Source of the DNA: an uncultured Sunxiuqinia sp.
GTDB taxonomy: Bacteria; Bacteroidota; Bacteroidia; Bacteroidales; Prolixibacteraceae
Assembly (NCBI RefSeq): GCF_963678245.1
Contig: NZ_OY782767.1
Span: 496,001 to 560,000 of the forward strand
Direction of reading: 5' to 3'
DNA length: 64,000 nt
The stretch's first letter is position 1; each line of letters opens with the position of its first letter. The notes beneath the pieces are model-generated. The model was not told where the DNA came from and searched no databases. It saw nothing but the letters and a program-made list of their open reading frames with translations. The position numbers and the translations under genes are program-made. Below are positions 8,422 to 25,333 of the stretch, one piece after another.

Positions 8422-11400
8422 TTATTTTGCTTCTTGTCTTTTCTGAAATAAATAGTAAATTATTGGAACAACATAAATGTTCAATAGGGTTGAACTAAGC
8501 AATCCTCCAAGAATTACAATTGCCATTGGGCTCTGAATCTCATTTCCAGGTTTTTCCCCGGCCAGAGCAAGTGGAATTAATGCCAACGCAGCTGTCAAAG
8601 CTGTCATCAGGATTGGATTAAGACGATCAGCTGAACCATGCACAATTCGTTCTTTCAGGCTTTCAACCTGATTGCTTAACGATTGATACCTTGAAATGAG
8701 CAAAATACCATTGCGTGTTGCAATTCCGAAGAGGGTGATAAACCCGATGATTGATGGAATGCTGATAACACCAGAGGTCATCCAAATAGCAATTACGCCT
8801 CCAATTAATGCTAACGGAAGATTGATCAGAATAATCAAGGCTAGCCTGGTGTTTTTGAATTCGACATATAGCAGGATGAAAATGATGAGCAGGGCGCCAA
8901 GCGATGCAATCATCAAGGTACGCGAAGCATCTGCTTCACTCTCAAATTGCCCGCCATATTCGAGGTGATAATTCTCGGGTAGCTGGATGTTTTCATTAAT
9001 TTCCTTTTGGATATCATTGACAACACTTCGAACATCACGGTCGGCAACATTGACTGCCACGACAATTTTGCGCATCACATTTTCGCGGCCAATGGTGTTT
9101 GGTCCAAAAGTAGATTCAATGTCGGCCACATAATAAAGTGGTACTTTTTGTCCGTCCGGCGTGTCTATCAGCGCATTTCTGATAGCTTCAATATTATCTC
9201 GACTTTTGTCGTCAAACCTAAGAATCAAGTTGAACGCTTTTTCGTTGACAAATACATCAGAGATTTTTTCGCCACCAAATGCATATTCCATAAACTCGAG
9301 AAACTCATTTACAGAAATGCCATAGCGAGCAAGCATTTCGCGGTTCGGTTTGATCTGCAATTGTGGAATCTCAATTTGCTGCTCCACGGATAAATCACCA
9401 ATTCCCTTGACATCCTGTATGGTCTCTTTGATTTGGTTTGCCAATCGGAACATACTACTTAGTTCGGTTCCAAAAAGCTTAATGGCGATGTTGGTTTTTG
9501 AACCTGAAAGCATGGCATCAATCCTGTGGCTAATTGGCTGTCCAACTTCAACTGTAATCCCTTCAATCCGGTTGAGTTTATCGCGTACTTCATTCAAAAA
9601 GTCGGTTCTCGAACGATCGTCCAACTGATAAGGGGCATCGATCTCTGAAACATTGACACCAAAAGTATGCTCAGCCATCTCTGCACGTCCTGTTCTTCGG
9701 GCAATCGAAGTGATTTCTGGAATAGATAACAAGGCTTGTTCGGCCTGGACACCCAGTTTGTTGCTTTCTTCCAGGTTGATTCCGGGCATGGTTGTCGTAT
9801 TAATTGTAAGCGACCCTTCGTTGAATGGTGGCAGAAAACTCCGCCCAAAGCTGGTAACCAATAAGATTGAAAGAATGAACAACAGTCCGGAAATACTGAT
9901 GACTGCTTTTCGGTAGTGAATGGCTTGCCTCAATGTTTTGGTGTAGTAATTTTGTAAGAAGCGTTCCACCCCGCTTCCTTTTGCTTGCCTCTGAAGTCGT
10001 TTTTCGTTGGTCAGTAAAAAGCTGCTTAAAACGGGGATCACAGTTATTGCAACAAACAAGGACGCAAACAGCGAAACAATGTAAGCAGTCCCCAGTGGTT
10101 TAAGCATACGACCTTCCATGCCAGAAAGGAAAAACAGGGGTACAAAAGCGATGATGATAATCAAAGTGGCATTGAGAATGGATGCACGGATTTCAACCGA
10201 TGCTTCGTAGATCACGTTATAGAGCGGTCGCTTTTCTTTGTTGGGTAAACGACTGTTTTCGCGCAGACGTTTGTACACATTTTCAACATCAATAATCGCA
10301 TCATCAACTAGCGATCCGATGGCGATGGTCATTCCTCCCAATGTCATCGTATTGATGGAAATTCCGAGCCATTTCATGACCAAAACAGCTACCAGAAGGG
10401 AGAGAGGAATAGCAAGGACTGAAATGATCGTGGTGCGGTAGTTCATCAAAAAGACAAACAAGATAATCACAACAAACAATCCCCCTTCAAGCAGCGCTTT
10501 TTGAACATTATTTACCGATGTTTGGATAAATTTAGCCTGTTCAAAAATATCAGTGTGGATCTTCACATCTTTGGGAAGCATTTCTTTTAAATCATCCAGT
10601 GATGTTCTGATTTTTTCGCTTAAGTCCAGCGTGTTAATATTGGGCTGTTTGGTAACAGTCAGGATAACCGCTTTTTCTCCACGATAAGATCCGTCACCAA
10701 TCTTAGGTGCTGTGCCGATCTTTACGGTAGCTACATCATTCACCTTGATGGGATTACCGTCCTGCATTTTGATCAAAGTGTTGCCAATGTCTTCCAAGAC
10801 GTTGGTACGGGCTAATCCCCGGATAAGGTATTCTTGTCCGTGTTCATTTAGAAATCCTCCCGACACATTTTCGTTGGATGCCTGGCATGCTGCGATCAAC
10901 TCGTGAAAAGAAACATCATGAAACTTCAGTTTGAGCGGATCGGCCAGAATTTGAAACTCTTTTAAATCGCCTCCAATAATGGCTACCTGAGCTACTCCAC
11001 CCACCGAAAGTAGGCGAGGGCGAATATTCCAGTCAGCCAATGTTCGCAAGTCCATCGCTGAGGTTTCATCAGCCGTCAGGGCAATCATCATAATTTCACC
11101 CATGATGGATGATTGTGGGGCCAGGGTAGGAGAGCCCACCCCGACTGGCATGGCATCGGCAACGGTGGCTAGTTTTTCGCTTACAATCTGGCGGGCGTCG
11201 TAAATGTCCATGTCCCAGTCAAATTCAACCCAGACGATTGAAAAACCCATCGCTGAAGAGCTTCGGACCCTGCGGATATTTGTTGCTCCATTCACTGCTG
11301 TTTCAATGGGGAAGGTAACCAGCCGCTCAACCTCCTCCGGTGCCATTCCATGCGCTTCGGTTAGCACCACAACGGTTGGAGCGTTTAGATCAGGAAAAAC

Positions 11401-11511
11401 ATCCACTTCCATGTCGGTGGTTACATAAATTCCTGCACCAAGAATAAGGGTCGCCATGATCAGAATTACCAGCTTATTCTTCAGCGAATATTCAATAATT
11501 TTATTCAGCAT
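8422..11511 (-). CDS. Heavy-metal efflux RND pump (CusA/CzcA family)
   Basis: A 1029-residue inner-membrane proton-driven pump that moves metal ions into a trans-envelope duct. The architecture is the RND duplicate: a TM1 helix (LVILIMATLILGAGIYV), a periplasmic loop, TM2-6 with the TM4 motif GMTIAIGSLVDDAIIDVEN (about residues 392-410), a second large periplasmic loop, and TM8-12. The TM4 motif has Ala where CzcA-type zinc/cobalt pumps carry the first Asp, so it looks more like CusA-type copper/silver pumps. However, the Met triad of CusA is not clearly conserved in the second loop, so the metal remains uncertain. It is the middle gene of the operon, 20 bases downstream of the adaptor. Confidence 0.94.
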   Translation of the reverse strand: MLNKIIEYSLKNKLVILIMATLILGAGIYVTTDMEVDVFPDLNAPTVVVLTEAHGMAPEEVERLVTFPIETAVNGATNIRRVRSSSAMGFSIVWVEFDWDMDIYDARQIVSEKLATVADAMPVGVGSPTLAPQSSIMGEIMMIALTADETSAMDLRTLADWNIRPRLLSVGGVAQVAIIGGDLKEFQILADPLKLKFHDVSFHELIAACQASNENVSGGFLNEHGQEYLIRGLARTNVLEDIGNTLIKMQDGNPIKVNDVATVKIGTAPKIGDGSYRGEKAVILTVTKQPNINTLDLSEKIRTSLDDLKEMLPKDVKIHTDIFEQAKFIQTSVNNVQKALLEGGLFVVIILFVFLMNYRTTIISVLAIPLSLLVAVLVMKWLGISINTMTLGGMTIAIGSLVDDAIIDVENVYKRLRENSRLPNKEKRPLYNVIYEASVEIRASILNATLIIIIAFVPLFFLSGMEGRMLKPLGTAYIVSLFASLFVAITVIPVLSSFLLTNEKRLQRQAKGSGVERFLQNYYTKTLRQAIHYRKAVISISGLLFILSILLVTSFGRSFLPPFNEGSLTINTTTMPGINLEESNKLGVQAEQALLSIPEITSIARRTGRAEMAEHTFGVNVSEIDAPYQLDDRSRTDFLNEVRDKLNRIEGITVEVGQPISHRIDAMLSGSKTNIAIKLFGTELSSMFRLANQIKETIQDVKGIGDLSVEQQIEIPQLQIKPNREMLARYGISVNEFLEFMEYAFGGEKISDVFVNEKAFNLILRFDDKSRDNIEAIRNALIDTPDGQKVPLYYVADIESTFGPNTIGRENVMRKIVVAVNVADRDVRSVVNDIQKEINENIQLPENYHLEYGGQFESEADASRTLMIASLGALLIIFILLYVEFKNTRLALIILINLPLALIGGVIAIWMTSGVISIPSIIGFITLFGIATRNGILLISRYQSLSNQVESLKERIVHGSADRLNPILMTALTAALALIPLALAGEKPGNEIQSPMAIVILGGLLSSTLLNIYVVPIIYYLFQKRQEAK

Positions 11512-11531
11512 AACTGTTTTTTTTTGAAGAA

Positions 11532-12767
11532 TTAGTGTTGGTGGCTATGTGCCGGCAGTGTGCTCGACATAGAAGCTAATTTGATTAAATACGGATTTTT
11601 AGTTGCTACATGATCGCCTGCGTGAAGCCCCTCGGAAATGTGGTAATTTTCGCCGTCGTTGCAGTCAATGGTGACGTAGTGCTTTTCAAAACTGTCATCT
11701 TCTTCAGCAAAAACATAGTAACGGCCAGCTTCTTCAAGCAAAGCAGATTTGGGAACCACAATCGCATTCGGAATCTCCACTGTTTTCAGGTAAACTTCTA
11801 CAAATGATCCAGCCAAGAGGTTTCCTACATTATCGATTTCAAAATAGATCGGGGTGAATAGCGAATTGTCTCCGGTTGATTTGCCGTACGAAATTAATTT
11901 ACCGTTCAGCTCATTGGTTTTATGAAGTTTCTTGTCGTAGGTTGTGACGAAGTTGGCTGTTTTTATTCTGCTTAGCATCGGAAAGTAGCGTTGCGGAACA
12001 TCAGCCTTAATAACCAGACGCTTGTTTTTTGTGATTTTCAGAAGCGGTTGTCCGGTGGTCACGAACTGCCCCTCAGTTACAAAAACGTTTTTGATAAAAC
12101 CGCTGGTTGAAGCAGCCACCTTTTGTCCGCCAGCCGAATAGTTTTTACGAACAATTTCGTAACTATTCTTCGCTTTTTCGTAGGCCATTTTTATCTCGGC
12201 GAGTTCTCTGTCCGAGGTTATTTTATCTTCATTCAACAATTTGGCGCGTTCATAATTGGCTTCAGCTGTCTCAAAGGCTGATTTTGAGTCCATAAAAGTT
12301 GTCTCAATATTGTCGTGGATTAAGCCTTTGCCTGAAATCGTAATGAGCTTTTCACCTTCTCTGATTTTTTCTCCGGACATCAGTGTTTTATTGCCAAAAA
12401 CAACAACTCCATCGTGAACTGCAGTTAAGGTAATCTCATCGCCTTGAGCAGGCATTATTTTCCCGCTGGTGTGGATTACTTCTCTAAACATTTTTGGCTG
12501 TAATTCAACGATGCCGTATTTTAAGTCGTGAGTATGTTCTTCTTCACCGTCCTGGTGCTCTCCTTTGTGCAGGTGTTCATCTCCTTCGTGGTCATGGTCG
12601 TGCCCTTCCGCTAAAGGGTTGTGCGCATGCTCTTCGTGACTGTGCTCTGAATCTTCTTCATGTGCGTGATTGTGTTCCGCTTCATTCTGGTTATGTGTGC
12701 AGGCGATACCCCAAAGCAGGTAGCCAGACATTAAAAATGGTATAATAATCTTCTTCATGATTAACAT
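11532..12767 (-). CDS. RND periplasmic adaptor with His-rich N-terminus (CusB/CzcB type)
   Basis: A 411-residue membrane-fusion protein linking the RND pump to the TolC channel. The N-terminus is a lipoprotein signal (GYLLWGIAC, probable lipidated Cys at about 23). It is followed by a strikingly His/Glu/Asp-rich stretch (about residues 26-80, many HxH and HEE repeats) that should bind metal in the periplasm. The lipoyl/barrel-sandwich halves and alpha-hairpin follow (GIVELQPKMFREVI, GEKIREGEKLITISG), then the beta-barrel and membrane-proximal domains. The His tract suggests metal scavenging before transfer to the pump. The start could also be the in-frame ATG three codons later (12758). Confidence 0.93.
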   Translation of the reverse strand: MLIMKKIIIPFLMSGYLLWGIACTHNQNEAEHNHAHEEDSEHSHEEHAHNPLAEGHDHDHEGDEHLHKGEHQDGEEEHTHDLKYGIVELQPKMFREVIHTSGKIMPAQGDEITLTAVHDGVVVFGNKTLMSGEKIREGEKLITISGKGLIHDNIETTFMDSKSAFETAEANYERAKLLNEDKITSDRELAEIKMAYEKAKNSYEIVRKNYSAGGQKVAASTSGFIKNVFVTEGQFVTTGQPLLKITKNKRLVIKADVPQRYFPMLSRIKTANFVTTYDKKLHKTNELNGKLISYGKSTGDNSLFTPIYFEIDNVGNLLAGSFVEVYLKTVEIPNAIVVPKSALLEEAGRYYVFAEEDDSFEKHYVTIDCNDGENYHISEGLHAGDHVATKNPYLIKLASMSSTLPAHSHQH

Positions 12768-12776
12768 GTCAACTGG

Positions 12777-12796
12777 TTTTCAGCTAGTGCTGAAAA
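12777..12796 (-). repeat. 8-bp hairpin in the adaptor gene leader
   Basis: TTTTCAGC and GCTGAAAA flank a TAGT loop just upstream of the adaptor start. It lies in the transcript between the small His-rich gene and the adaptor gene, and lacks a terminator T-run on the minus strand. It may act in mRNA stability. Confidence 0.4.
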
Positions 12797-12831
12797 TGAT
12801 TAAAAATAGAATTAGAAAACTAAATTTGGAA

Positions 12832-13254
12832 TTAAGCTAAGGCCGGAGGGCCACGAAGCGAAGCGTGAGAATAAAAATCAAATTGGTAGTGATTAATCCA
12901 ATAATCTACATGTGTTATTTTTTCTTTGGGTTGAAGCAGATTCGCTAAAAAATTGTAGATGCAGATGGTATTGCTAATTGTTAATTTTGATAGGTTGGTG
13001 GTTGCTTCGGTGGAGAAATGACAAGCATGGCAATGCGTATTGTCGTGAGTTTCCTGGCACTGTGTTGTTGCCAATGTTTGATGCAAGTTAACTGATTGTT
13101 GAGTAACGCTTGTTAGCGTATTGTCGTGAGTGCATTCGTGCTCGCAGGTTGCAATACTAGCATGATGGTGATGAGGAATAACAGCATGTGCAATGATCAC
13201 CACTATGGCTATCCACATACAAAATGCTCCGATATGTTTAACCTTTTGAATCAT
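12832..13254 (-). CDS. Small His/Cys-rich envelope protein of the metal efflux operon
   Basis: The start is placed at the ATG at 13254 because a -7 box lies just upstream at 13279-13272, so a longer in-frame reading beginning at 13341 would not be transcribed. The 140-residue product has one hydrophobic N-terminal segment (MWIAIVVIIAHAVIP). This is followed by HHHH, a Cys/His cluster (CEHECTHD), and a second cluster (TQCQETHDNTHCHACHF). The C-terminus ends SLRGPPALA. This layout matches small uncharacterised Bacteroidota proteins found at the head of metal RND operons. A metal-binding, sensing or chaperone role in the periplasm is inferred from the Cys/His content and from its place as first gene of the operon. 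Confidence 0.8.
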   Translation of the reverse strand: MIQKVKHIGAFCMWIAIVVIIAHAVIPHHHHASIATCEHECTHDNTLTSVTQQSVNLHQTLATTQCQETHDNTHCHACHFSTEATTNLSKLTISNTICIYNFLANLLQPKEKITHVDYWINHYQFDFYSHASLRGPPALA

Positions 13255-13271
13255 TTCGACAATCTGGATAG

Positions 13272-13279
13272 CAAAAATA
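13272..13279 (-). promoter_or_regulatory. Candidate -7 promoter box of the metal efflux operon
   Basis: Read on the minus strand, 13279-13272 is TATTTTTG, an exact TAnnTTTG match 17 bases before the ATG at 13254. No -33 TTTG is seen at the usual distance. Confidence 0.45.
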
Positions 13280-13416
13280 CAATTTTCTATCAAACTTGAA
13301 ACTTTTAGATATTTATTGGTTGTTAATATTTTTAAACCCAAAAAAACTTCACCAAATAAATGATGAAGGTTGATGAATTCAGGGTTTGATTCGCGGACAA
13401 GCCGCGTAATATCGTA

Positions 13417-14688: not shown

Positions 14689-14800
14689 ACAATTTGAAGT
14701 TTTTAAGAAATAATTTACATTAATTTTAAATCGGAACAAATTAGAAATTAATCACTTATCTATCCTTATTTAGATTGAATAAAAAAAAGAAAGTATTTTC

Positions 14801-14832
14801 TTTGGCTTTTTTCAAATATGTATCTACATTTG
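14801..14832 (+). promoter_or_regulatory. Promoter of the sulfur-assimilation leader and operon
   Basis: TTTG at 14801-14804 and TACATTTG at 14825-14832 match the Bacteroidota -33 and -7 elements with a 20-base spacer. Transcription should begin near 14838, about 24 bases before the leader-peptide ATG. Confidence 0.7.
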
Positions 14833-14861
14833 AGTCGTTAAACAAACGCAAAATAGAATCG

Positions 14862-14963
14862 ATGAATTTAAGAACTTCTGTATATAAAATGATGTGTGTA
14901 ACATATAACATGATGATGTGTATGTGTTGTGGATTTTTTATGCCGAAGGGAATAAAGAGATGA
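14862..14963 (+). CDS. Met/Cys-rich leader peptide (putative attenuation leader)
   Basis: A 33-codon reading frame starts at the ATG at 14862, about 24 bases after the predicted transcription start. An in-frame start further upstream (14775) would lie before the promoter and is excluded. The peptide contains 8 Met (including the first) and 4 Cys, concentrated at residues 10-12 (MMC) and 17-23 (MMMCMCC), with M27 after them. Its stop codon (14961-14963) is 28 bases before a strong intrinsic terminator, which itself lies in front of genes for sulfite reduction and siroheme. This is the layout of a ribosome-mediated attenuator. When Cys-tRNA or Met-tRNA is scarce, the ribosome stalls on these codons and the terminator fails to form. 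The function is inferred from this arrangement. Confidence 0.75.
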   Translation: MNLRTSVYKMMCVTYNMMMCMCCGFFMPKGIKR

Positions 14964-14991
14964 AAATATAGTGTGATATAACAATCATAGT

Positions 14992-15024
14992 AAAGCCCTT
15001 CTGAAATTCAGAAGGGCTTTTTTT
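14992..15024 (+). terminator. Attenuator terminator in front of the sulfite-reductase operon
   Basis: AAAGCCCTTCTGAA and TTCAGAAGGGCTTT are exact inverted arms (14992-15005 and 15007-15020) with a T-run to 15024, so a stem of about 13 bp is possible. It lies between the leader peptide and the first structural gene (15056), where only regulated read-through makes sense. GAAGGG at 14945-14950, inside leader codons 28-30, could pair with CCCTTC at 14996-15001 and serve as a short antiterminator. Confidence 0.9.
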
Positions 15025-15055
15025 ATGGTTTTGGATAAAAAAATATCAATAGAGT

Positions 15056-15286
15056 ATGAGAGAAAAAGCATATCGCAGCGTCGTAAAAACAATTTCGTGG
15101 AGAATGGTTGGAACCATTGACACGATAATGATTGCATGGTTGGTTGTTGGAAAATTAGAGTATGCTGTGACCATTGGAGGTGTTGAGTTGTTTACAAAGA
15201 TGATCTTGTATTATTTCCACGAACGCACGTGGAATAAAGTTAAGTTCGGAAAAATTGATGACTCCGACATCGAATATCAAATTTAA
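15056..15286 (+). CDS. DUF2061 small membrane protein
   Basis: A 76-residue protein with an Arg/Lys-rich start (REKAYRSVVKTISWRMVGTI) and two hydrophobic segments. The ending is FHERTWNKVKFGKI, the conserved signature of the DUF2061 family. From memory, this family commonly accompanies or is fused to sulfate-activation proteins in bacteria, so its presence as first structural gene of a sulfite-reduction operon is in keeping, though its molecular role is unknown. It starts 31 bases after the attenuator T-run, and the next gene begins 5 bases after its stop. Confidence 0.9.
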   Translation: MREKAYRSVVKTISWRMVGTIDTIMIAWLVVGKLEYAVTIGGVELFTKMILYYFHERTWNKVKFGKIDDSDIEYQI

Positions 15287-15291
15287 AAGGC

Positions 15292-15759
15292 ATGGAAAAG
15301 AATTACCTACCTATTGCACTTAACATTGCCGGTGAAAAGATCCTGATCATCGGGGGAGATCAGTCGGCCTGGAACAAGATTAAGATTCTGAAGCGTTTTA
15401 ACGCTTATCTGGAAGTAATTGCGTTGGAAGTGTGTGATGATATTAAAAACAGCGATGTGCCTTACCAGGAAAAAGCTTATGAGAAAGGTGATTTGAATGG
15501 CTACCTGATGTTTTATTCCTGTACAAACAACCTTGAGCTGGATACTCAAATTGCGAAAGATGGACGCGAAGCGGGAGTGCTAGTCAATATTCATGATAAT
15601 CCGGCACTTTGCCAGTTTGTTTCACCAGCCATCTACCAAAACGAGAACATTCGGGTGGCCGTCAGCTCAAATGCGAAAGATGTTTATTCATCAATCAGAA
15701 TCAGAAACGAGATCAAAGAATTTTTAAAAACTAAAACAGATAAAGACCAGAAGAAATGA
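15292..15759 (+). CDS. Siroheme synthase N-terminal-type protein (precorrin-2 dehydrogenase/ferrochelatase)
   Basis: A 155-residue Met8/CysG-N-type protein that oxidises precorrin-2 with NAD and probably inserts iron to give siroheme. The N-terminus has the family start YLPIALNIAGEKILIIGGD, with the GG dinucleotide-binding turn. The segments VLVNIHDNPALCQFVSPAIY and IRVAVSSNAKDVYSSIRIRNEI match the conserved NVxDxxxxCxFxxPA and lower-domain motifs. The usual GGGxVA is changed to GGDQSA, so NAD binding may be somewhat altered. It lacks the methyltransferase half, which is supplied by the separate CobA gene at 20978. It overlaps cysJ by four bases (ATGA). Confidence 0.9.
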   Translation: MEKNYLPIALNIAGEKILIIGGDQSAWNKIKILKRFNAYLEVIALEVCDDIKNSDVPYQEKAYEKGDLNGYLMFYSCTNNLELDTQIAKDGREAGVLVNIHDNPALCQFVSPAIYQNENIRVAVSSNAKDVYSSIRIRNEIKEFLKTKTDKDQKK

Positions 15760-17549
15760 GTATTAAATTATCCCCATTGAATGAAGCTCAACTGAAAGCC
15801 TTGCAGGATCTGACGCAAGGTATTCAACCCGATCAGGTTACTTGGTTGAGTGGTTATTTTCAAGGATTAGTAGGAGCAGTCTCTGCTGGCGCAACACCCC
15901 AGGGTGTAGCAGTTGAGGCGGCAGCTGAATCAGCAGAAAAATTACCATTGACCATTTTGTATGGCACACATACAGGAAGAAGTGAAGCCTTGGCTAAGAC
16001 GCTTTGCGAAAAAGCAGTGTCTCAAAATATAACATGTGTTACCAAACCAATGGACGACTATAAACCAAAGCAATTGAAAGATGAAAAAAATGTGCTGGTT
16101 ATTGTTAGTACCCATGGGGAAGGAGAGCCACCGGAAATGGCTGAAGATTTTCACGAGTTTGTCACCGGCAAAAGAGTTCCAAAGCTTGGGGGTTTAAATT
16201 ATTCAGTTTTGGCTCTGGGTGATAAAAGCTATAAGCTTTTTTGCCAAACCGGAGTTGATATTGACGAGGCCTTTAAAAAAGCAGGAGCAAACGAATTGCT
16301 TCCAATTGTAAAATGTGACGTAGACTATGAGGAAGATGCCGCAAAATGGACAGATGGTGTGTTGATTGAATTGGGAAAGTTACAGCCCAAAGCTTCGTCA
16401 CAATCTCTTCAACCTACAGAAACGAAATCCGAAGAGAATCTCTATTCAAAGAAGAACCCATTTAAATCAACGGTGCTTGATAAAGTTCGCATAACCGGAC
16501 GTGACTCTGACAAAGAAGTGTACCACCTTGAATTGTCGCTTGAAGGTTCCGGTATAAAATATGAGCCGGGCGACGCTTTAGGCGTGATTGCGCAAAATCC
16601 ACCGCAGTTGGTGAAAGACATCATCAAATCGTTGGGCGTAATTAATAATGAGGTGGTGGAAACCCGAATCGGAAAATTGCAGTTCAATGAGGCATTGGAA
16701 CATCATTACGAAATTACTCTATTAACCCGGGATGTCATTCAAAAGTATGCTGAGAAAACCGGACAGAAAGAAGTTCAGGAGATTGTAGAGAATGAAGATA
16801 AGCTCGACCACTATTTATATGGACATGATGTGCTGGATTTATTGCATGAGTTTCCGGCAAAGTTGACCGCCACCGAATTTTTAGAAACTCTTCGTCCGCT
16901 TCCACCACGCTTGTATAGTATTTCCTCAAGTCTAGAGTCGGTTGAAGATGAAGTGCATATAACCGTTTCGCGTGTGCGTTACGAAAACAAGGGCCGGCAA
17001 CGTTATGGTGCTTGCTCAACATTTTTAGCCGATCGGTTAGAGGTGGATGAAACTGCTCTTATTTACATTGATAAAAATCCAAATTTCAGACTCGCTGAAA
17101 ATGGAAACCCGATCATTATGGTTGGAGCAGGAACCGGTATTGCTCCTTATCGTGCGTTCCTGCAACAACGTGAGGCTGCCAACCAAAAAGGTAAAAGCTG
17201 GTTGTTTTTTGGCGAGCGTCGCTTTTCGTCCGACTTTTTGTACCAGGTTGAATGGCAGAAATACTTGAAAAAAGGTTATCTAGAGAAAATTGATTTGGCA
17301 TTTTCGCGCGATCAGGAAGAAAAAATTTACGTTCAGGATAGACTGAAGCAACAGCAGGAGGAAGTGTTTAAATGGCTTGAAAATGGAGCGAGCTTTTACC
17401 TGTGTGGTGACATGAAATACATGGCTCGCGATGTTCAGGTTACCCTGTTAGACATTATTAAAACACAAGGCGGAATGACAGAGAAAAAAGCACGAGCCTA
17501 CTTTAAAAAACTGAAGAAAGAAAAACGCTTTATGGCTGATGTGTATTAG
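15756..17549 (+). CDS. cysJ: Assimilatory sulfite reductase (NADPH), flavoprotein subunit
   Basis: A 597-residue diflavin reductase carrying electrons from NADPH through FAD and FMN to the CysI hemoprotein. An N-terminal helical segment is followed by a flavodoxin domain (LTILYGTHTGRSEALAKTL at about 65-84; VIVSTHGEGEPPE; LALGDKSYKLFCQTG). The FAD domain has RLYSISSS and YGACSTFLADR, and the NADPH domain has MVGAGTGIAPYRAFLQQR and FYLCGDMKYMARDV. It ends in the family-typical MADVY. The length equals E. coli CysJ. It is followed by cysI after an 84-base spacer that holds a short direct repeat. Confidence 0.97.
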   Translation: MSIKLSPLNEAQLKALQDLTQGIQPDQVTWLSGYFQGLVGAVSAGATPQGVAVEAAAESAEKLPLTILYGTHTGRSEALAKTLCEKAVSQNITCVTKPMDDYKPKQLKDEKNVLVIVSTHGEGEPPEMAEDFHEFVTGKRVPKLGGLNYSVLALGDKSYKLFCQTGVDIDEAFKKAGANELLPIVKCDVDYEEDAAKWTDGVLIELGKLQPKASSQSLQPTETKSEENLYSKKNPFKSTVLDKVRITGRDSDKEVYHLELSLEGSGIKYEPGDALGVIAQNPPQLVKDIIKSLGVINNEVVETRIGKLQFNEALEHHYEITLLTRDVIQKYAEKTGQKEVQEIVENEDKLDHYLYGHDVLDLLHEFPAKLTATEFLETLRPLPPRLYSISSSLESVEDEVHITVSRVRYENKGRQRYGACSTFLADRLEVDETALIYIDKNPNFRLAENGNPIIMVGAGTGIAPYRAFLQQREAANQKGKSWLFFGERRFSSDFLYQVEWQKYLKKGYLEKIDLAFSRDQEEKIYVQDRLKQQQEEVFKWLENGASFYLCGDMKYMARDVQVTLLDIIKTQGGMTEKKARAYFKKLKKEKRFMADVY

Positions 17550-17633: not shown

Positions 17634-19331
17634 ATGAGCGAAGTAATAGATTGGAGCACATTAAGTGTGGTTGAAAAAATTAAATATGACAGCAACTACC
17701 TAAGGGGAACGCTCGAAGAAAGCCTGGCAGATCCGGTAACCGGAGCAATTGCTGATGATGATACGCAGGTTTCAAAATTTCATGGTATTTATCAGCAACA
17801 TGATCGGGACTTGGAGAAGGAGCGAAAGCGTCAGAAACTGGAACCGGCATATTCATTTTTGATTCGTGTTCGACTTCCGGGAGGCGTTACCACGAGTAAA
17901 CAATGGTTGCAAATGGATAAGCTGGCCGATACACATGCCAATGGCACACTAAAGTTGACTACACGTCAGGCGTTTCAGTTACACGGTGTTATTAAAACCA
18001 AGTTGAAGGCAACGATTCAGGGAATAAACAAAGGCTTGTTGGACACGATTGCAGCTTGTGGTGATGTGAATAGAAATGTGATGTCACACGCCAATCCGGG
18101 TGAGTCGGATCTGCATGCAACGGTTTACAAATTAGCTGATGATATTTCGGCCCATTTAACGCCGCGCACAACTGCCTATCACGAAATTTGGCTCGACCAA
18201 AAAAAGGTAGCTGACAGTAAGCATGAAGTTGAGCCGATTTACGGTGTTCGTTACCTGCCGCGTAAGTTTAAAATTGGTGTGGCTATTCCTCCTTATAACG
18301 ATATTGATATTTTCTCACAGGATTTGGGATTTATCGCTATCGAAGAAAAAGGAAAACTAGTCGGTTATAATGTAACCGCCGGCGGTGGTTTTGGATCGAC
18401 TTTTGGCATACCGGAAGCCTATCCTCGCTTGGCTGATGTGATTGGTTTTTGTACGCCCGAACAGGCAGTTGACGTGGCTGAGAAGGTGGTTTTAGTACAA
18501 AAGGATAACGGAAATCGACAGAACCGGAAGCAAGCTCGTTTAAAATACACGATTGATCGTTTAGGACTGGATTGGTTTAAGGCCGAAGTCAACAAGTACC
18601 TAGGGTACGAACTACAGCCAGCTAAACCTTTTACGTTTACCCGAAATGGCGATCGTTATGGATGGAAAAAAGGAGCTGATCGCAAATGGAGCCTGAATTT
18701 GTTTATCGAGGGCGGACGTGTAAAAGACACCGACTCGTTAAAATTGAAAACAGCTTTGCGCGAAGTTGCTGAAAACATTGAAGACGCTCAGTTCATTTTA
18801 ACCGGAAACCAAAATTTGGTAATTGGCAACACCACCGAAAAAGATAAAGTCAGCCGTATTCTCAAAAAGTACGGCGTGTGGCCGGTTCAATTATCAGGCT
18901 TACGTCAAAACACAATTGCCTGTGTTGCGCTAAATACCTGTAGCTTGGCTTTTGCCGAAGCAGAACGCTACTTACCAACAATGGTTGGCAAAATCGAATC
19001 TATTTTAGAAGAGCACGATCTTTTAAAACAAGAGATTGTTATAAGAATGACAGGCTGCCCCAATGGTTGTGGACGCCCTTACTTGGCCGAGATTGGTTTT
19101 ATCGGAAAATCGCTCGGACATTACAACCTCTATTTGGGAGGGAATTTCAACGGAACAAGATTGAATACCCTTTACAAAGAAACTCTTTCGGAAGAAGAAA
19201 TACTGAACGAACTGCGCCCCATTATTGCAGACTATGCTAAAAACAGGAATAAAGGAGAAGGTTTTGGTGATTTCGTTATCCGGAAAGAATACGTGAAAGA
19301 AACAAAAGAAGGAAGAGATTTTAGACATTGA
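17634..19331 (+). CDS. cysI: Assimilatory sulfite reductase hemoprotein subunit
   Basis: A 565-residue siroheme/[4Fe-4S] enzyme that reduces sulfite to sulfide with six electrons from CysJ. The two duplicated ferredoxin-like and core domains are complete. The cluster/siroheme ligands are visible as CVALNTC (about residues 430-436) and [10 protein letters not shown] (about 475-484), giving the four Cys. The sulfite-binding basic patch includes [11 protein letters not shown] and NVMSHANPG-type segments. The length is close to E. coli CysI (570). The gene ends four bases before hemD. Confidence 0.97.
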
Positions 19332-19335
19332 AAAT

Positions 19336-20076
19336 ATGGAATTACCGGCAATATTTGTAGGAAAAAAACTATCAGCCCTAACTCGCAAATGGCTGATTAG
19401 CGAACAAATTCGTTTTATTGAGCAACCTCTGGTTCGAATCAATTACCGTAAACCCGACATCCGTTTTTTTGAACATTTGCGGGATGTCGATAAAAAGTGG
19501 GTAGTAACCAGTTCGTACGCTGCGCATTGGCTCTCACGTTTTGCTAATAAAATAGGAATGAAAAAGGATGACGTGGTGTATTGCCTTTCAGAAAAGCAGG
19601 AAGGCATTTTGTCTAGGTGTGGTGTAAAAGTATTGCGCCCGGTCTCACCCAATGCTTATTCGTTGGCCGAGCTGATTATAGCACAAGATAATGGAACAAA
19701 AGTGATCTATCTGAGAGGGAATAAATCGCTTAATCAATTGCCTGAATTGATTGATGGTCATAATGTTAATTGGCAGTCGGTTGAGGTCTATAAAAACACG
19801 TCCGTAGAAATTTTATTGAACGAAGTGTTTGACGGGTACTTATTTTTTAACGAAAGCGATGTTAAAAGCTATAAGGCATCGGGAAACTTTCCTGCGCCTA
19901 AGGCACCGGTTTTAGCGAACGGAGACCGTACAGCACAGGCTGCCTGGGCCGAATTTCCTAATTTGGTGCTGGAATCTTCGGAACAAGAAGAACTTTCGTT
20001 TGTGAAATATGCGATTAAGCGAATCACCGAAAAGTTAAATGAGCCGAAGCCCAAACACAATATTATCATAGAGTAA
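19336..20076 (+). CDS. hemD: Uroporphyrinogen-III synthase
   Basis: A 246-residue two-lobed protein whose sequence (QIRFIEQPLVRINYR near the start; VSPNAYSLAELI and IIYLRGNKSLNQLPELI-like segments later) fits the weakly conserved HemD family. It closes and inverts hydroxymethylbilane to uroporphyrinogen III, the precursor for CobA. Its position between the siroheme-dependent CysI and the SDR/CobA genes supports the call and shows that precursor supply is bundled with sulfite reduction. The start lies four bases after the cysI stop. Confidence 0.82.
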   Translation: MELPAIFVGKKLSALTRKWLISEQIRFIEQPLVRINYRKPDIRFFEHLRDVDKKWVVTSSYAAHWLSRFANKIGMKKDDVVYCLSEKQEGILSRCGVKVLRPVSPNAYSLAELIIAQDNGTKVIYLRGNKSLNQLPELIDGHNVNWQSVEVYKNTSVEILLNEVFDGYLFFNESDVKSYKASGNFPAPKAPVLANGDRTAQAAWAEFPNLVLESSEQEELSFVKYAIKRITEKLNEPKPKHNIIIE

Positions 20077-20086
20077 TACAATTAAA

Positions 20087-20917
20087 ATGAAACGAATTTC
20101 CATACTCGGATGTGGTTGGTTGGGGTTTCCCTTGGCCGAGAAGCTTTTGGCGAAAGGTTTTCAGGTGAAAGGATCGGTAACGACCCGGTCGAAATTGAAA
20201 AAAATGGCTTCTGCCGGAATTGAGCCTTATCGACTGGTTTTAGATGCTGATAAGGTTCTATTAAAGAATCCTTCGTTTTTTGATACCGATTTGGTTATTG
20301 TTGCAATTCCTCCACGGCGGGTAGAATTTATTGATACGATTTTTCCGGCTCAAATTAAACAGTTAGTGGGCTTTTTAGAGGAGTACAAAGTCCCACGTGT
20401 ACTGTTTGTTTCGTCCACTTCGGTTTATAATGAATTGGATGGGAGAGTAGCTGAAGAGGACGTTTTACTTCCTGATAAGCCGTCGGGTAAAGCCTTGGTT
20501 TTATCAGAATACCTATTAACCCAGAATCCGAACTTTGAAGCGACCGTTTTGCGTTTTGGGGGACTGATTGGGGCTGACCGGAATCCGGCTCGATTTTTAA
20601 GCCGAAAGAAAAAGGCAATTAGCGGAACCAAACCTGTCAATCTGATTCATTTGGATGATTGTTTACAGATTATCATTAAAATCATTGATGATGAAGTTTG
20701 GGGAGAAACGTTCAATGCTTGCAGTCCGATTCATCCTACTCGTCAGGAGTTTTACGAGCGGGCGTCAGCCGTTTCCGGGATTCTAGCTCCACCGTTTAAT
20801 AATGAAAAATCGCCTTTTAAGTTGGTTGATAGTAGTAAATTAATTCGGATGTTGAATTACCAATTCAAATTTCCCAGTCCTATGGATTATCTCGGAACGG
20901 TTAATCATGAATTGTAA
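20087..20917 (+). CDS. NAD(P)-dependent epimerase/SDR-like protein (YeeZ type)
   Basis: A 276-residue Rossmann-fold protein. The N-terminus ISILGCGWLGFPLAEKLLAK is the nucleotide-binding motif, and RVLFVSSTSVYNELDGRVAE with a Ser-x-Tyr resembles the extended SDR active site, though the usual YxxxK Lys is not evident. The segments LRFGGLIGADRNPARFLS and LIHLDDCLQIIIKII match YeeZ-like proteins. Substrate and reaction are unknown. It lies 10 bases after hemD and 60 bases before cobA, so it is presumably cotranscribed with the siroheme genes. Confidence 0.85.
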   Translation: MKRISILGCGWLGFPLAEKLLAKGFQVKGSVTTRSKLKKMASAGIEPYRLVLDADKVLLKNPSFFDTDLVIVAIPPRRVEFIDTIFPAQIKQLVGFLEEYKVPRVLFVSSTSVYNELDGRVAEEDVLLPDKPSGKALVLSEYLLTQNPNFEATVLRFGGLIGADRNPARFLSRKKKAISGTKPVNLIHLDDCLQIIIKIIDDEVWGETFNACSPIHPTRQEFYERASAVSGILAPPFNNEKSPFKLVDSSKLIRMLNYQFKFPSPMDYLGTVNHEL

Positions 20918-20977: not shown

Positions 20978-21769
20978 ATGTCAGAATCCACCGAACATAT
21001 TAAAGGCACTCAGCCTGTAAATAAGCACGCTCACCTTATTTCGATTGTTGGTGCCGGACCGGGCGATCCCGAATTGCTCACGGTGCGTGCTGTTCGGCGA
21101 CTGGAGCAGGCTGATGTAATTTTGTATGATGCGTTACATGGCACCGAAATATTAGAAGCTGCCAACCCAAATGCCGAACGAATTTATGCCGGCAAACATT
21201 ATCAAGATGGACAGCATCAAACCGAGAGGCAGGATCATATTCACAGTCGCCTGAAGCAATTTGCCAATGAAGGCAAACGCGTGGTGCGATTAAAGGCAGG
21301 CGATCCATTTATTTTTGGTCGTGGAGCCGAGGAGCTTGCGTTTTGTTTGCAGGAGAACCTAAATGTTGAGGTGGTACCGGGAATTACTGCCGGACTAGCT
21401 GCAGCCACTTGTTTTCATATTCCGGTAACCTTGCGGAATGCCAATAGTATGGCCATGTTTTATACCGGACATAAACGGAGAGGTGGTTTTGAAAATATTG
21501 ATGAGGTGGCTTCGGTGATTAAAGCGAATGCACCTGTTATGGTTTATATGGGATTGAAAAACCTCACTCTTCTTTCTAAAGAATTATTAACTCGCGACGT
21601 CACCGCTGAAGCTCCGATGCAAATTGTCAGCCGGGTTGGTCACCCTGATCAGCAACTGTTTACATCATCATTGGGTGAGATTGAAAACTACCTAACGACT
21701 GTCGATCCACCCATGCCGTCTGTTATTATTATCGGCACGCGAGCTCATCAGGTGAGTTCGCATGTATGA
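20978..21769 (+). CDS. cobA: Uroporphyrinogen-III C-methyltransferase
   Basis: A 263-residue SAM-dependent enzyme that methylates uroporphyrinogen III at C2 and C7 to precorrin-2. The family motifs are complete: VGAGPGDPELLTVRAVRRL (about 25-43), the VRLKAGDPFIFGRGAEE loop (about 105-121), VVPGITAGLAAATCFHIP, and the C-terminal PMPSVIIIGTRA. It works with the stand-alone dehydrogenase/ferrochelatase at 15292 to make siroheme for CysI; in enterobacteria the two activities are fused in CysG. Last gene of the sulfite-reductase operon. Confidence 0.95.
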   Translation: MSESTEHIKGTQPVNKHAHLISIVGAGPGDPELLTVRAVRRLEQADVILYDALHGTEILEAANPNAERIYAGKHYQDGQHQTERQDHIHSRLKQFANEGKRVVRLKAGDPFIFGRGAEELAFCLQENLNVEVVPGITAGLAAATCFHIPVTLRNANSMAMFYTGHKRRGGFENIDEVASVIKANAPVMVYMGLKNLTLLSKELLTRDVTAEAPMQIVSRVGHPDQQLFTSSLGEIENYLTTVDPPMPSVIIIGTRAHQVSSHV

Positions 21770-21858: not shown

Positions 21859-24630
21859 ATGGATTCTGTTTTCGAACAAGTAAAACAAGCGCTTGGAAAA
21901 CCTTACAATGATCTTAATTTTTTGCTGCAAAGCTTTGCCGAGGTTCTTACGGAAAGTGGCGCGCAGGAAATAGTTCCTCATATTCCCTGGATCAATTCAA
22001 ATCAAAAGCCTCCGAAAGATGTATTGCTGAGTAGTGATTATATCCACATGTTGTCGATGTGTTTTCAGTTACTGAATCTCGTTGAGGTAAATGGAGCAGT
22101 GCAAAGTCGTCGGGCAAAAGAAGAAGAGGACATGAGCAAGGTAAATGGCTTGTGGACTACTAATTTCAAGATGCTTAAGGAAAAAGGAATTGACGAAAAA
22201 CAGATTTTGGCCGTACTTCCCAACATCATGATTGAGCCTGTATTGACAGCACATCCCACCGAAGCAAAACGTTCGGTTGTTTTACAGGAATACCGAAAGC
22301 TATACTTGCTTTTGGTGAAGCGCGAAAATCAGATGTACACGCGCATCGAGCAGGGCGATATTCGCAATGAAATTAAGCAGATATTGCATCGCTTGTGGAA
22401 TATTGGTGAGATTTATATTGAAAAACCGCACATTGAATCAGAGCTGGACAACATCTTACACTATCTGACGAATGTGCTGCCCGAGGTTGTTGTACTGTTG
22501 GATAAACGTCTGAGACAAGCCTGGAAGGAATCTGAATTCGATGAAAGTTTGTTGAATAATATGGAGCTGTTACCGGGTTTGTCCTTTGGTAATTGGGTTG
22601 GTGGAGATCGCGATGGACACCCCTTGGTTACCGCCGAAACAACAAAAATGACGCTTAATAAACTTCGTGTCCATGCTTTTATAATTGTCCGTCAGGAACT
22701 GCTTCTTTTAGCTCATAAACTGAGCATTTATATTGATAGTACGGAGGTTTCCTCGTCGTTTGTCGATCGGGTACAGCAGATGGCGAAAGAGTTGGAACGC
22801 TCGGGTGAGTTGGTTCTGGAAGAGCACAGTAGTGAAATTTTTAAAGCCTACGTGTTACTTTTGTTGAATAAAATACCAATCAACCAAAGTCAGGAACATA
22901 CATTGGAACTTGAAAACAGACCAACCAGCTACCAAAATTCTGATCAGTTAATACAAGATCTGGATGTCTTGTTTATTGAGCTACAAAATCGTGGATTACA
23001 TGAAATTGCGCAGGTTGATGTTGGACGATGTAAGCGACTATTAAAGGTTTTTGGTTTTCATTTGGCTCAATTGGATATCCGCCAGAACAGCGAATATCAT
23101 GAGAAAGCATTGTCACAACTTGTTTTATCCTCATTGGGGCAGAATGAAGGTAGCCTGCTAATTGCTTCGCAGGCTGCCAAACGCACTTTTTTGGATGCCG
23201 AATTAAAGGTCAATCGTCCGTTTTTGGTCGATCATGCTGAGGCTGGCGAAGAAGCTCGTAATGTGATTGAAAGCATGCAGGTAGTAAGCAACCACATTGA
23301 GAAATACAGCACCCGCTCATTGGGCAAGCTTATTATAAGCATGACTCGGAACGCAGAGGATTTGCTAACCGTTTACCTGTTCATGCGAGAAGCTGGAATG
23401 ACCCTGAAATATGGTGATTTATTGGGAGCCAAATTGCCTGTCGTGCCTTTATTCGAAACTATTGAAGACTTATTAGCCAGCCCCGAAATTCTGGATGACT
23501 ATCTCAGTCATCCGGTGGTCATCAACAGTTTGAAATATCAACAGAAGCGGGATCAGGCAGATAATCTCTATCAGGATGTGATGATAGGTTACAGCGATAG
23601 CAATAAGGATGGTGGAATTCTGGCAAGCTCCTGGTTTTTACATGAAGCGCAGCAACGACTTTCCGAAATTGGGAAAAAGCATGGTGTTCTCATTCGCTTT
23701 TTTCATGGAACCGGAGGAAGTATCAGCCGAGGAGCCGGTCCGTCGCATTGGTTTGTGAAAACATTGCCGCATGGGGCAATCAATGGGAAATTGCGGATTA
23801 CTGAGCAGGGGGAAACCATCGAGCGCAAGTATGCCAATAAAATGAATGCTGCTTATAATTTGGAGTTGATGTTGGCAAGTGTTACTGCTCAAACCATATT
23901 GCATGCGAATCAGTCGGTAGAAAGTGAGGAGGTTGCTGGATTATTTCATCAGTTAGGAATTCGTGGTCGGGAGTTTTATCGCGATTTAATTAGTGACCCC
24001 GATTTTATACACTTTTTTGCTGAAGCGACACCAATTGATGTGATCGAATCCAGCAAGATTGGCTCACGTCCGGCGCGGCGAACCGGAAAACGGACAATGG
24101 ATGACCTACGTGCTATTCCCTGGGTTTTTAGTTGGGCGCAATCTCGGTTCAATATTACCAGCTGGTATGGTGTAGGTTCAACTTTAAATGAGCTGAAAAC
24201 CCAAAAGACAGATGAATATGAGAAATTGCTGAAACTAGTCAAGTATGATCCATTTGTACGATATGTAATAACAAATCTCGATTCGAGTATTGCAGCAACT
24301 GACGAACAGATTATGAATAAGTATGCTGCTTTAGTAGAAGATGAAACGATTCGGGAGCGGATGATGAACAAGATTCGGAAAGAGTTCGATTTAACAAAGG
24401 CCATGTTGGGCGATATGCTTCAAAAACCATTTAAGGAAAGACGTAAAAATCATTATTATTCAACAATTTTGCGTGCTGAAGCGATGAATAATTTGCATGA
24501 TGCTCAAATTGAACTATTGAAAAAATGGCGGAGTAGCAGAAAAAATCAATCTAAAGATGAGTCAGAACATTTGTTTGCATTGCTTCAGTGTGTGAATGCC
24601 ATTGCAAATGCATTAGGAACAACCGGATAA
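21859..24630 (+). CDS. ppc: Phosphoenolpyruvate carboxylase
   Basis: A 923-residue enzyme, slightly longer than the 883 of E. coli, that carboxylates PEP with bicarbonate to oxaloacetate for anaplerosis or fermentative succinate formation. The catalytic His motif is VLTAHPTEAKR (about residue 133). Other signatures are GNWVGGDRDGHP, the MIGYSDSNKDGG loop, FHGTGGSISRGAGP with the bicarbonate/PEP-binding Arg/His, and RPARRTGKRTMDDLRAIPWV. The C-terminus ends ANALGTTG rather than the usual NTG; the allosteric tail is similar. It begins 89 bases after cobA and is followed after 10 bases by an LCIB-like gene, which suggests cotranscription. Confidence 0.97.
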   Translation: MDSVFEQVKQALGKPYNDLNFLLQSFAEVLTESGAQEIVPHIPWINSNQKPPKDVLLSSDYIHMLSMCFQLLNLVEVNGAVQSRRAKEEEDMSKVNGLWTTNFKMLKEKGIDEKQILAVLPNIMIEPVLTAHPTEAKRSVVLQEYRKLYLLLVKRENQMYTRIEQGDIRNEIKQILHRLWNIGEIYIEKPHIESELDNILHYLTNVLPEVVVLLDKRLRQAWKESEFDESLLNNMELLPGLSFGNWVGGDRDGHPLVTAETTKMTLNKLRVHAFIIVRQELLLLAHKLSIYIDSTEVSSSFVDRVQQMAKELERSGELVLEEHSSEIFKAYVLLLLNKIPINQSQEHTLELENRPTSYQNSDQLIQDLDVLFIELQNRGLHEIAQVDVGRCKRLLKVFGFHLAQLDIRQNSEYHEKALSQLVLSSLGQNEGSLLIASQAAKRTFLDAELKVNRPFLVDHAEAGEEARNVIESMQVVSNHIEKYSTRSLGKLIISMTRNAEDLLTVYLFMREAGMTLKYGDLLGAKLPVVPLFETIEDLLASPEILDDYLSHPVVINSLKYQQKRDQADNLYQDVMIGYSDSNKDGGILASSWFLHEAQQRLSEIGKKHGVLIRFFHGTGGSISRGAGPSHWFVKTLPHGAINGKLRITEQGETIERKYANKMNAAYNLELMLASVTAQTILHANQSVESEEVAGLFHQLGIRGREFYRDLISDPDFIHFFAEATPIDVIESSKIGSRPARRTGKRTMDDLRAIPWVFSWAQSRFNITSWYGVGSTLNELKTQKTDEYEKLLKLVKYDPFVRYVITNLDSSIAATDEQIMNKYAALVEDETIRERMMNKIRKEFDLTKAMLGDMLQKPFKERRKNHYYSTILRAEAMNNLHDAQIELLKKWRSSRKNQSKDESEHLFALLQCVNAIANALGTTG

Positions 24631-24640
24631 TAAATAAAGT

Positions 24641-25333
24641 ATGAGTACAGTTGAAGATCGAATAAAAGCACTTTTCCCAGATGCAGCACCTTACGATCAG
24701 GTGTTGGATGAATACTATCAGCGAATGATTCATGAGTTCGGATTGGAGATCGAAAATACCATTGCTGCAGTTTCGTTGTGTCCCGATGAATTGAATAACG
24801 TAGTCATTGAAAAAGTTCGCAGCTATTTTAATAATGTGTTTTTAATTGGAGGATTGGCCGGATATCCGTTTACCGGAATTACTGGCTTCAATGCTTTCGG
24901 CGATCATATCCCCGATGATGGAACTGCTTTTGTTTTTTTTGGACCACACTTAGCTATCGATGAAAAAAGCCTTGGGTTTGTTCATCGGCATGGGCAAAAG
25001 CGCGATACCTTGTCGTGCGGTGCCGCTTTTGGAGCCTACCGAAGCCTGCTAAAACACGAAGGCACTCCTGATCAGATTGATCCCAACGATTATCAACAGG
25101 GACGAATTCAACAAATGCTGGCTCCAATGCTTGATCAGATTCCCAAAAAACAGCCAGAACCCAAGGTTATGGACATTTTGTTCGATGAGAGTCATGATTT
25201 TATTGTTACCCAGTCGAAAAGGATTAAAGAGCTTTTTAAAGCTAACAAAGTTATTTTAATGGGTGCTTTTGTAATTAATACGCCGCTGGATATGTCAGAT
25301 TATTTATGGGTGAAGTATTTCGAAGAACTCTAA
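24641..25333 (+). CDS. LCIB-family (limiting-CO2-inducible B) beta-carbonic-anhydrase-like protein
   Basis: A 230-residue soluble protein resembling the algal LCIB/LCIC fold, a distant beta-carbonic anhydrase. The hallmark block is LIGGLAGYPFTGITGFNAF (about 68-86), followed by HIPDDG, FFGPHLAIDE and SCGAAFGAY. The likely zinc ligands, taken from the family pattern as I remember it, are C47 (SLCPDE), H103 and C126, and all are present. This suggests an active hydratase rather than a degenerate relative. It starts 10 bases after ppc, whose substrate is bicarbonate. The inferred role is to convert CO2 to bicarbonate, or balance the two, for PEP carboxylase. Confidence 0.85.
   Translation: MSTVEDRIKALFPDAAPYDQVLDEYYQRMIHEFGLEIENTIAAVSLCPDELNNVVIEKVRSYFNNVFLIGGLAGYPFTGITGFNAFGDHIPDDGTAFVFFGPHLAIDEKSLGFVHRHGQKRDTLSCGAAFGAYRSLLKHEGTPDQIDPNDYQQGRIQQMLAPMLDQIPKKQPEPKVMDILFDESHDFIVTQSKRIKELFKANKVILMGAFVINTPLDMSDYLWVKYFEEL

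Follow-up and report, generated by a model that had tools for sequence, protein, structure and literature searches.

The window, a 64,000-nt stretch of a contig from an uncultured Sunxiuqinia sp., carries a promoter-proximal short frame rich in Met and Cys codons, an intrinsic terminator and then the genes for sulfite reduction, and this arrangement is very probably a ribosome-mediated attenuator of transcription, apparently of the type with four regions, that senses cysteine, and possibly methionine. The initial annotation had read the leader and terminator as an attenuator from the window, and homologous units in related genomes, a kept spacing between codons and RNA arm, and covariation in two alternative helices all support that reading. 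The features are listed in Table 1.

Table 1. Leader region and downstream operon (positions in the window).
Feature	Position	Strand	Basis or remark
Putative Bacteroidota-type promoter	14801–14832	+	TTTG 14801–14804, 20 nt, TACATTTG 14825–14832; read directly
Leader peptide gene, MNLRTSVYKMMCVTYNMMMCMCCGFFMPKGIKR, 33 codons, then stop	14862–14963	+	Sequence and homologues
Candidate region 1, CTTCTG, leader codons 5–7	14875–14880	+	Can pair with antiterminator arm
Second small Met/Cys group, MMC	14889–14897	+
Putative regulatory codons 17–23, MMMCMCC	14910–14930	+
Predicted antiterminator arm CCGAAGGG, leader codons 28–30	14943–14950	+	CAGAAGGG in nearest relative
Inner helix, predicted within antiterminator loop	14969–14992	+	Folds
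Terminator 5' arm, common to terminator and antiterminator	14992–15004	+	Folds, covariation, terminator scan
Terminator 3' arm (15008–15020) and T run	15008–15024	+	Sequence, covariation, terminator scan
DUF2061 membrane protein, first gene past attenuator	15056–15286	+	Pfam PF09834
Siroheme synthase N-terminal (precorrin-2 dehydrogenase) domain protein	15292–15759	+	TIGR01470 above cut-off; PF13241
cysJ, assimilatory NADPH sulfite reductase flavoprotein	15756–17549	+	NCBIfam TIGR01931 above cut-off
cysI, assimilatory NADPH sulfite reductase hemoprotein	17634–19331	+	NCBIfam TIGR02041 above cut-off
HemD-like uroporphyrinogen-III synthase	19336–20076	+	PF02602
NAD(P)-binding epimerase-like protein	20087–20917	+	Also adjoins cysI in many relatives
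Uroporphyrinogen-III C-methyltransferase (siroheme branch)	20978–21769	+	TIGR01469 above cut-off

The TTTG-20-TACATTTG sequence, which we take to be of the Bacteroidota promoter type, stands 29 nt upstream of the leader ATG. With 8 Met codons and 4 Cys codons, the leader frame is rich in codons for what the operon helps to make: cysteine is built from the sulfide yielded by CysJI, and methionine is built from cysteine. In Met/Cys density it ranks first among the 526 ATG frames of 15–70 aa in the window. An ATG frame of that length with at least four Cys and six Met, on either strand, arose in 1 of 20,000 dinucleotide shuffles of positions 14740–15055, and a Met/Cys run of seven with at least three Cys in none of 20,000. 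The terminator, which begins 28 nt past the stop codon and lies between the leader and the first gene, is a 13-bp hairpin, its loop 3 nt long, with a T run (14992–15020; folding energy −20.0 kcal/mol), and it was the sole site in a terminator scan of 14740–15300 (one found versus 0.2 expected in shuffles). The nearest listed gene upstream of the leader is on the opposite strand, so the operon appears to contain this terminator within its 5' region. Within the arm, GAAGGG (14945–14950) is complementary to the terminator 5' arm and pairs with 14996–15001. The promoter, the 33-codon frame, which is far from chance in shuffles, the 13–14 bp terminator with its T run 28 bases past the stop, and the GAAGGG in codons 28–30 are all where the initial annotation had placed them. 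An Rfam scan of the window returned zero families at gathering score, neither SAM/S-box nor any other known riboswitch among them.

Pfam matches in the operon are to DUF2061, an NAD-binding protein of the siroheme-synthase type, HemD and tetrapyrrole methylase and, judged by its protein families, the operon is one for assimilatory sulfite reduction plus siroheme cofactor supply. The genome falls in the genus Sunxiuqinia of the family Prolixibacteraceae, and the nearest named relative of the window is Sunxiuqinia indica, of the same family, which has an identical DUF2061 protein and a leader with 4 residue differences. Elsewhere in the window, the span 21859–25333 encodes a phosphoenolpyruvate carboxylase and, after 10 nt, an LCIB-type carbonic anhydrase, a pair that would fit local bicarbonate supply. 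On the minus strand at 8422–13341 are RND-type efflux-like genes (an inner-membrane protein and a His-rich adaptor) and a gene for a small His/Cys-rich protein, as judged from translations only.

For comparison, leader-terminator units were collected from related loci. An initial 54 records became 59 (56 with a terminator) after two were rejected as false, L028 on the reverse strand and L035, a short frame with only a poor hairpin, and seven were added. When rebuilt with a better terminator detector the set held 65, and removal of L234, the hairpin of which was unconvincing, left 64. These 64 units are distinct, yet some are near-identical, and the filter used in the rebuilding missed known leaders, including those of G018, G019, G020, G036, G044, G073 and the second copy in G009. 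Leader length ranges from 26 to 39 residues, with 2–9 Cys (mean 4.11) and, excluding the start, 2–8 Met (mean 5.30). A TAnnTTTG sequence occurs 12–90 nt 5' of the leader ATG in 54 of the 64, and the terminator stem begins 23–39 nt past the leader stop. An arm, mostly CAGAAGG, stands between the last Cys codon of the core and the terminator and is complementary to the terminator 5' arm; the helix that the two can form is 8–11 bp long in 60 units and 5–6 bp in 4. This complementarity exceeds that of shuffles (p ≤ 0.05) in 58 of 64, the remainder being L157 (0.412), the second unit of L081 (0.179), L005 (0.159), L024 (0.113), L060 (0.063) and the second unit of L096 (0.056).

The position of the arm is regular. 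It lies within the leader frame and begins 10–25 nt before the stop codon in 61 of 64 units and, counted from the first base of the last core Cys codon, starts at 13–17 nt in 45 and at 11–19 nt in 55. With that codon in the A site, the front of the ribosome should, from the footprint size we assume, end at the start of the arm. By the same assumed footprint, a ribosome that waits at the regulatory codons should leave the arm exposed, and one at the stop should cover it. Conservation is of this distance, while the intervening sequence varies, as do the order and length of the Met/Cys run (CMMCMCC, MCMCMCMC, MCCCMCC, CCCMCM); Cys codons are TGT in 219 cases and TGC in 44. In the leader alignment few residues outside the Met/Cys core are conserved. 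An alignment of upstream regions from related genomes had been put forward in the initial annotation as the way to check its proposal, and what it reveals is a Met/Cys run kept amid varied residues, a terminator at a constant position and a covarying arm.

Pair counts were made on 59 aligned units, leaving out three without CAGAAGG (L157 and the second units of L081 and L096) and two duplicate segments; in rows L207 and L081 the alignment is plainly off at the arm, which weighs against the antiterminator pairing. Cells of the antiterminator helix were paired in 95.9% of cases, 5 of 9 pairs had changes in both partners, and sliding the partner by 1–3 columns lowered pairing to 38–57%. The corresponding values for the terminator helix were 98.8%, 6 of 10 pairs and 47–62%. 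In the shuffle control for the antiterminator, 3 of 500 shuffles had at least as many doubly changed pairs as were observed, and 2 of 500 at least as many types; for the terminator, the observed doubly changed pairs were reached in 0 of 500, and a slide of −2 gave 27 doubly changed cells versus 33 observed. These counts ignore phylogeny, and by inspection there were at least three separate changes (in genus g2, in the Marinifilum/Labilibaculum pair and in G334). The base 5' of CAG illustrates the pattern, being G opposite C or T after CTTCTG and T opposite A or G (40, 2, 0 and 13 in a table of 55 rows, with pairing broken in 2), and in Labilibaculum CAAAAAGG is opposite CCTTTTTG. Because one arm is common to helices 2:3 (antiterminator) and 3:4 (terminator), it seems that the two alternative structures have both been kept. 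Predicted folds agree: when the terminator 3' arm is absent, all 64 units have a minimum free energy structure in which the arm is paired to the terminator 5' arm (median z −2.9; z ≤ −1.5 in 63 of 64). Covariation in both helices and the folds point to an antiterminator that is mutually exclusive with the terminator.

Codon usage also sets the arm apart from the rest of the leader. Arm codons are CAG 52 times versus CAA 3 times and AAG 42 times versus AAA 2 times, the counts outside the arm being AAA 97, AAG 22, CAA 14 and CAG 4, and in G046 and G111 the arm is in a different frame. Ahead of the arm, substitutions in 18 leader pairs fall on codon positions 1, 2 and 3 in the numbers 73, 70 and 76, with no third-position excess, and codon changes there comprise 20 synonymous and 118 others; such an even spread would be usual for a leader peptide and is no proof of translation. 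Within the Met/Cys core, 7 synonymous and 22 other codon changes represent a modest excess over a null synonymous fraction of 0.105. A count of closed other frames is biased because the leaders were picked as open frames.

The antiterminator of the window is weaker than most. Its pairing is 6 bp, among the weakest arms of the set, because the arm reads CCGAAGGG where that of S. indica, with 8 bp, has CAGAAGGG, and the predicted antiterminator energies are −12.3 kcal/mol in the window versus −16.5 in S. indica. The 6-bp pairing had been named as the weakest point of the proposal; that stands for the window but not as a general weakness, since relatives mostly have 8–11 bp. The weakness is, from the aligned arms, a property of the window strain and not of its relatives, and the window unit may, with its shorter antiterminator, respond less strongly.

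A candidate for region 1 is found near the leader start. In 32 of 64 leaders, versus 1.5% of shuffles, the first 36 nt contain the motif CTTCTG, which begins at leader nucleotide 14 in most leaders that have it, and the leader-start stretch pairs with the arm above shuffles (p ≤ 0.05) in 40 of 64. A Ser near position 6 is almost invariant in the aligned leaders, its codons lying within CTTCTG. Region 1 pairs with the arm over 8 bp in S. indica; in the window, where the arm has changed, it does so over only 4 bp, a value within chance (p 0.176). At the flank of helix 1:2 the next outward base is mismatched in 16 of 36, with no clear covariation. Region 1 can complete a classical four-region layout of 1:2, 2:3 and 3:4, a suggestion with weaker support than the other helices have.

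Within the family, sulfite reductase is present in 80 of 140 genomes. Among these 80, the leader precedes the enzyme genes or is otherwise present in 63, and is absent from 13 that are readable, while the other 4 end at a contig edge: in G007 and G016 the sequence begins with the siroheme/cysJ genes or just ahead of them, and in G023 and G117 it begins within the enzyme. The 63 were summed by hand from 46 profile-matched genomes that also have the enzyme and 17 read from loci (G037, G039, G041, G043, G046, G054, G061, G065, G066, G069, G071, G077, G108, G110, G111, G113 and G114). A search with the leader profile by itself matched 48 of 140 genomes, in 10 of 23 genera, a count that is too low because G037 and G061, the leaders of which are inside the profile, went unreported. 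The leader was not found, with two filters of which the second was looser, in 12 genomes of genus g10 (among G080–G095) and in G027. Operons without the frame had been named beforehand as evidence that would speak against an attenuator, and they do occur, in these 13 of 80 genomes; their sulfite reductases are 59–62% identical and their gene order is different, cysJ leading and the siroheme gene following cysI.

The link to the operon does not depend on its first gene. The leader is found in six operons that have no DUF2061 before the siroheme gene (G046, G108, G110, G111, G120 and G132), in two with an inserted gene resembling glutamyl-tRNA reductase (G062 and G131) and more than 2 kb upstream of DUF2061 in G113 and G114; in G022 the leader and enzyme are on separate contigs. 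DUF2061 is present in G109, and G018 has a matching stretch. By gene content, the leader is associated with the cysJI/siroheme operon even where DUF2061 is absent. Among 30 fetched DUF2061 loci, 28 have a Met/Cys leader within 420 nt; of the other two, L010 has its leader about 1 kb upstream and L023 (G019) has a leader with one Cys. In a named set of 80 DUF2061 loci, 23 have a true leader within 420 nt and 26 bear one of the 64 units, and the leader-bearing genera include Sunxiuqinia, Mangrovibacterium, Draconibacterium, Maribellus, Marinifilum and Labilibaculum.

Further afield, the leader profile matched its own genome plus two weak matches in 393 genomes of the order and plus three in 395 of the phylum, weak negatives because the G334 unit escaped the profile even though G334 is part of the order sample. 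No terminator-bearing leader before sulfur genes was seen in L034, L036, L037 or L038. Frames listed for the DUF2061 loci of Flavobacteriales (600 nt) and Campylobacterota (420 nt) include no Met/Cys leader, and flagged frames in L094, L108 and L145 were judged not to be leaders. In the genome of the window itself, the profile (E up to 10) gave no second Met/Cys leader, and none is near its two PAPS-reductase-domain loci.

Several variants of the unit were found. In the Marinifilaceae, Labilibaculum (L096:3590–4000) and Marinifilum (L081:3600–4000) have two units in series before DUF2061, the second leader of each ending in Pro-Pro-stop and having its arm, a short one (5–6 bp), just past the stop. 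In G077 (L157) the core ends in five Cys and one Met and the arm begins at the stop codon, and G334, of a different family, has its own arm/terminator pair. A Met-rich core with a single Cys (MYMCMW or MDMCMW) is present in G018, G019, G020 and the second operon copy of G009; such leaders, at L148 (about 1502–1605, plus strand), L155 (about 1718–1822, plus strand) and L200 (about 980–1085, reverse), retain the arm and terminator, and these cores suggest that Met may be a second signal. Three genomes from two additional families have frames with Cys runs (CCCMCS..CCC, GCCSCCCCS) directly before DUF2061/siroheme/cysJI genes (L230:1128–1238 and L238:855–953, both plus strand, and L234, reverse strand), with no convincing intrinsic terminator after the frames at these three loci, and L231 has a Cys-rich frame before cysJ, also without a convincing one. 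The genome of the window has, in addition, a histidine leader, MYNKLGHYGHHHNNLFIGRP, before hisG (L246:1208–1270, plus strand; G000:C4), followed by a terminator the 5' arm of which can, by eye, pair with the last leader codons. A leader-peptide attenuator of such a build therefore likely serves another amino acid in the same organism.

The leader, arm, terminator, spacing, covariation of 2:3 and 3:4, and link to cysJI are features of the sequences themselves, and the events that they would allow can be modelled on the classical attenuators, including translation of the leader, stalling according to amino-acid supply, the change in termination and the role of region 1. Transcription would start shortly 5' of the leader, and a ribosome would follow on the leader frame. 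If charged tRNA-Cys (perhaps tRNA-Met) were scarce, the ribosome would wait in the Met/Cys run, between regions 1 and 2, leaving free the arm (region 2, CAGAAGG, about 15 nt past the last core Cys codon). Region 2 could then pair with region 3, the terminator 5' arm, so that 3:4 would be blocked and the siroheme/cysJI operon transcribed. When Cys is plentiful, the ribosome would reach the stop and cover the arm, the hairpin with its U run would form, and transcription would end; were there no translation, pairing of 1:2 would also favour the terminator. Cysteine is favoured as the main signal because the last Cys codon sets the spacing and the more distant leaders are Cys-rich, and methionine, kept in the core, may also be sensed. 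A wider reading, which we hold tentatively and at somewhat below even chances, would have assimilatory sulfite reduction controlled across the Prolixibacteraceae by a dual Cys/Met attenuator that has diverged or re-arisen in other families (G334, the Marinifilaceae tandems and the terminator-less Cys-run leaders of families f65 and f38), the tandems being two serial checkpoints that sharpen the response.

Other explanations of the same features were weighed. A leader peptide could act on translation or via Rho, a mode proposed for actinobacterial cysteine leaders, rather than via an intrinsic terminator, as might be supposed from the frames without a convincing terminator before cysJI-type operons (L230, L234, L238) and before cysJ (L231), and from the actinobacterial cys leaders, which lack obvious terminators in the portion of the source drawn on (PMC1262725). 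In the window and the other 63 units, however, a stable T-run hairpin 23–39 nt past the stop covaries, and so does its mutually exclusive partner helix, which makes action through Rho or translation improbable. An untranslated RNA element, riboswitch-like or bound by a protein, would account for the constraint on the arm and terminator at the RNA level and for the even spread of pre-arm substitutions over codon positions, the Met/Cys codons then being accidental TGT/ATG repeats. Against this, no Rfam family matches the window at gathering score, TGT and TGC are both used, the run varies in order and length, what is kept is the distance from last Cys to arm and not the sequence between, and hisG is preceded by a histidine unit that is built alike; we consider such an element very improbable.

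Met/Cys clusters can bind copper, and metal-efflux-like genes, judged from translations, lie about 3 kb off on the opposite strand, which would suit a Met/Cys-rich microprotein acting in trans in metal binding or redox sensing beside an incidental terminator. Yet few residues outside the core are kept, and the best of these at the N-terminus, the Ser, coincides with CTTCTG; the leader travels with cysJI; the arm is conserved as RNA, and in two leaders in another frame; and a peptide of 26–39 residues would still be largely within the ribosome at the time of the decision. A function for the peptide in trans is on these points extremely improbable, and a ribosome-mediated attenuator is the reading we prefer.

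If so, a complete Cys/Met version with covarying helices would explain the control of sulfite reduction in many Prolixibacteraceae. The unit would offer a reporter for charged tRNA-Cys and a test of the closeness of transcription and translation in Bacteroidota, and the tandem pairs would permit a direct test of two serial attenuators.

Ribosome-mediated attenuators are classically those of the trp, his, thr, phe and ilv operons. Polycysteine leaderless short ORFs of mycobacteria were reportedly described by Canestrari and co-workers in 2020. The papers cited below were drawn on in part, and statements on them apply to those parts. In mycobacteria, short frames rich in Cys codons precede cysteine and sulfur genes (Shell et al. 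2015, PMC4633059), and the polycysteine case of M. smegmatis has been termed translation attenuation (PMC13236596). The unit described here likewise has a Cys-rich short frame before sulfur genes but, unlike the mycobacterial uORFs as given there, begins with an untranslated 5' lead and combines an intrinsic terminator with an antiterminator that covaries, and the phylum and leader sequence differ; with its upstream promoter-like sequence and terminator, the window does not represent a leaderless Cys run of the mycobacterial kind. Candidate cys leaders of Actinobacteria have runs of Cys codons near the stop and stand before cys operons (Seliverstov et al. 2005, PMC1262725); the same text reports no conserved terminator and a mode of regulation unknown to its authors. 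Cys runs are common to those leaders and the window unit, and in this comparison only the latter has a terminator. The metL leader of Streptomyces lividans mixes Met and Cys codons and ends in CMCRRMCAF, and it precedes a methionine transporter, without a typical intrinsic terminator (PMC8079986). It shares the Met/Cys mix with the window leader, while the target gene and terminator differ.

In Flavobacterium psychrophilum, leader-peptide attenuation has been inferred in general terms for amino-acid operons, with a structured 5' element before hisG (PMC9723704); section 19 of that paper contains no Cys/Met or sulfite-reductase case. Across the surveyed parts of PMC1262725, PMC2965389, PMC4633059, PMC8079986, PMC13236596, PMC7366714, PMC4833913 and PMC9723704, Cys leaders are those of actinobacteria, and a literature search, with most subscription journals and supplements outside its range, returned no Cys/Met transcription attenuator in Bacteroidota. 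As far as can be read from its sequence, the unit resembles the classical attenuators in its codons for the end product, its regions 2–4 with a candidate for region 1, its exclusive antiterminator and terminator and its stop near the arm. It differs from them in its signal (Cys, with Met), in its target (sulfite reduction and siroheme), in its occurrence in Bacteroidota and in the tandem arrangement of Marinifilum and Labilibaculum. The class of attenuator is a known one, and what appears to be new is the combination, in Bacteroidota, of a Cys/Met signal and all the parts of such a unit, together with the tandem forms.
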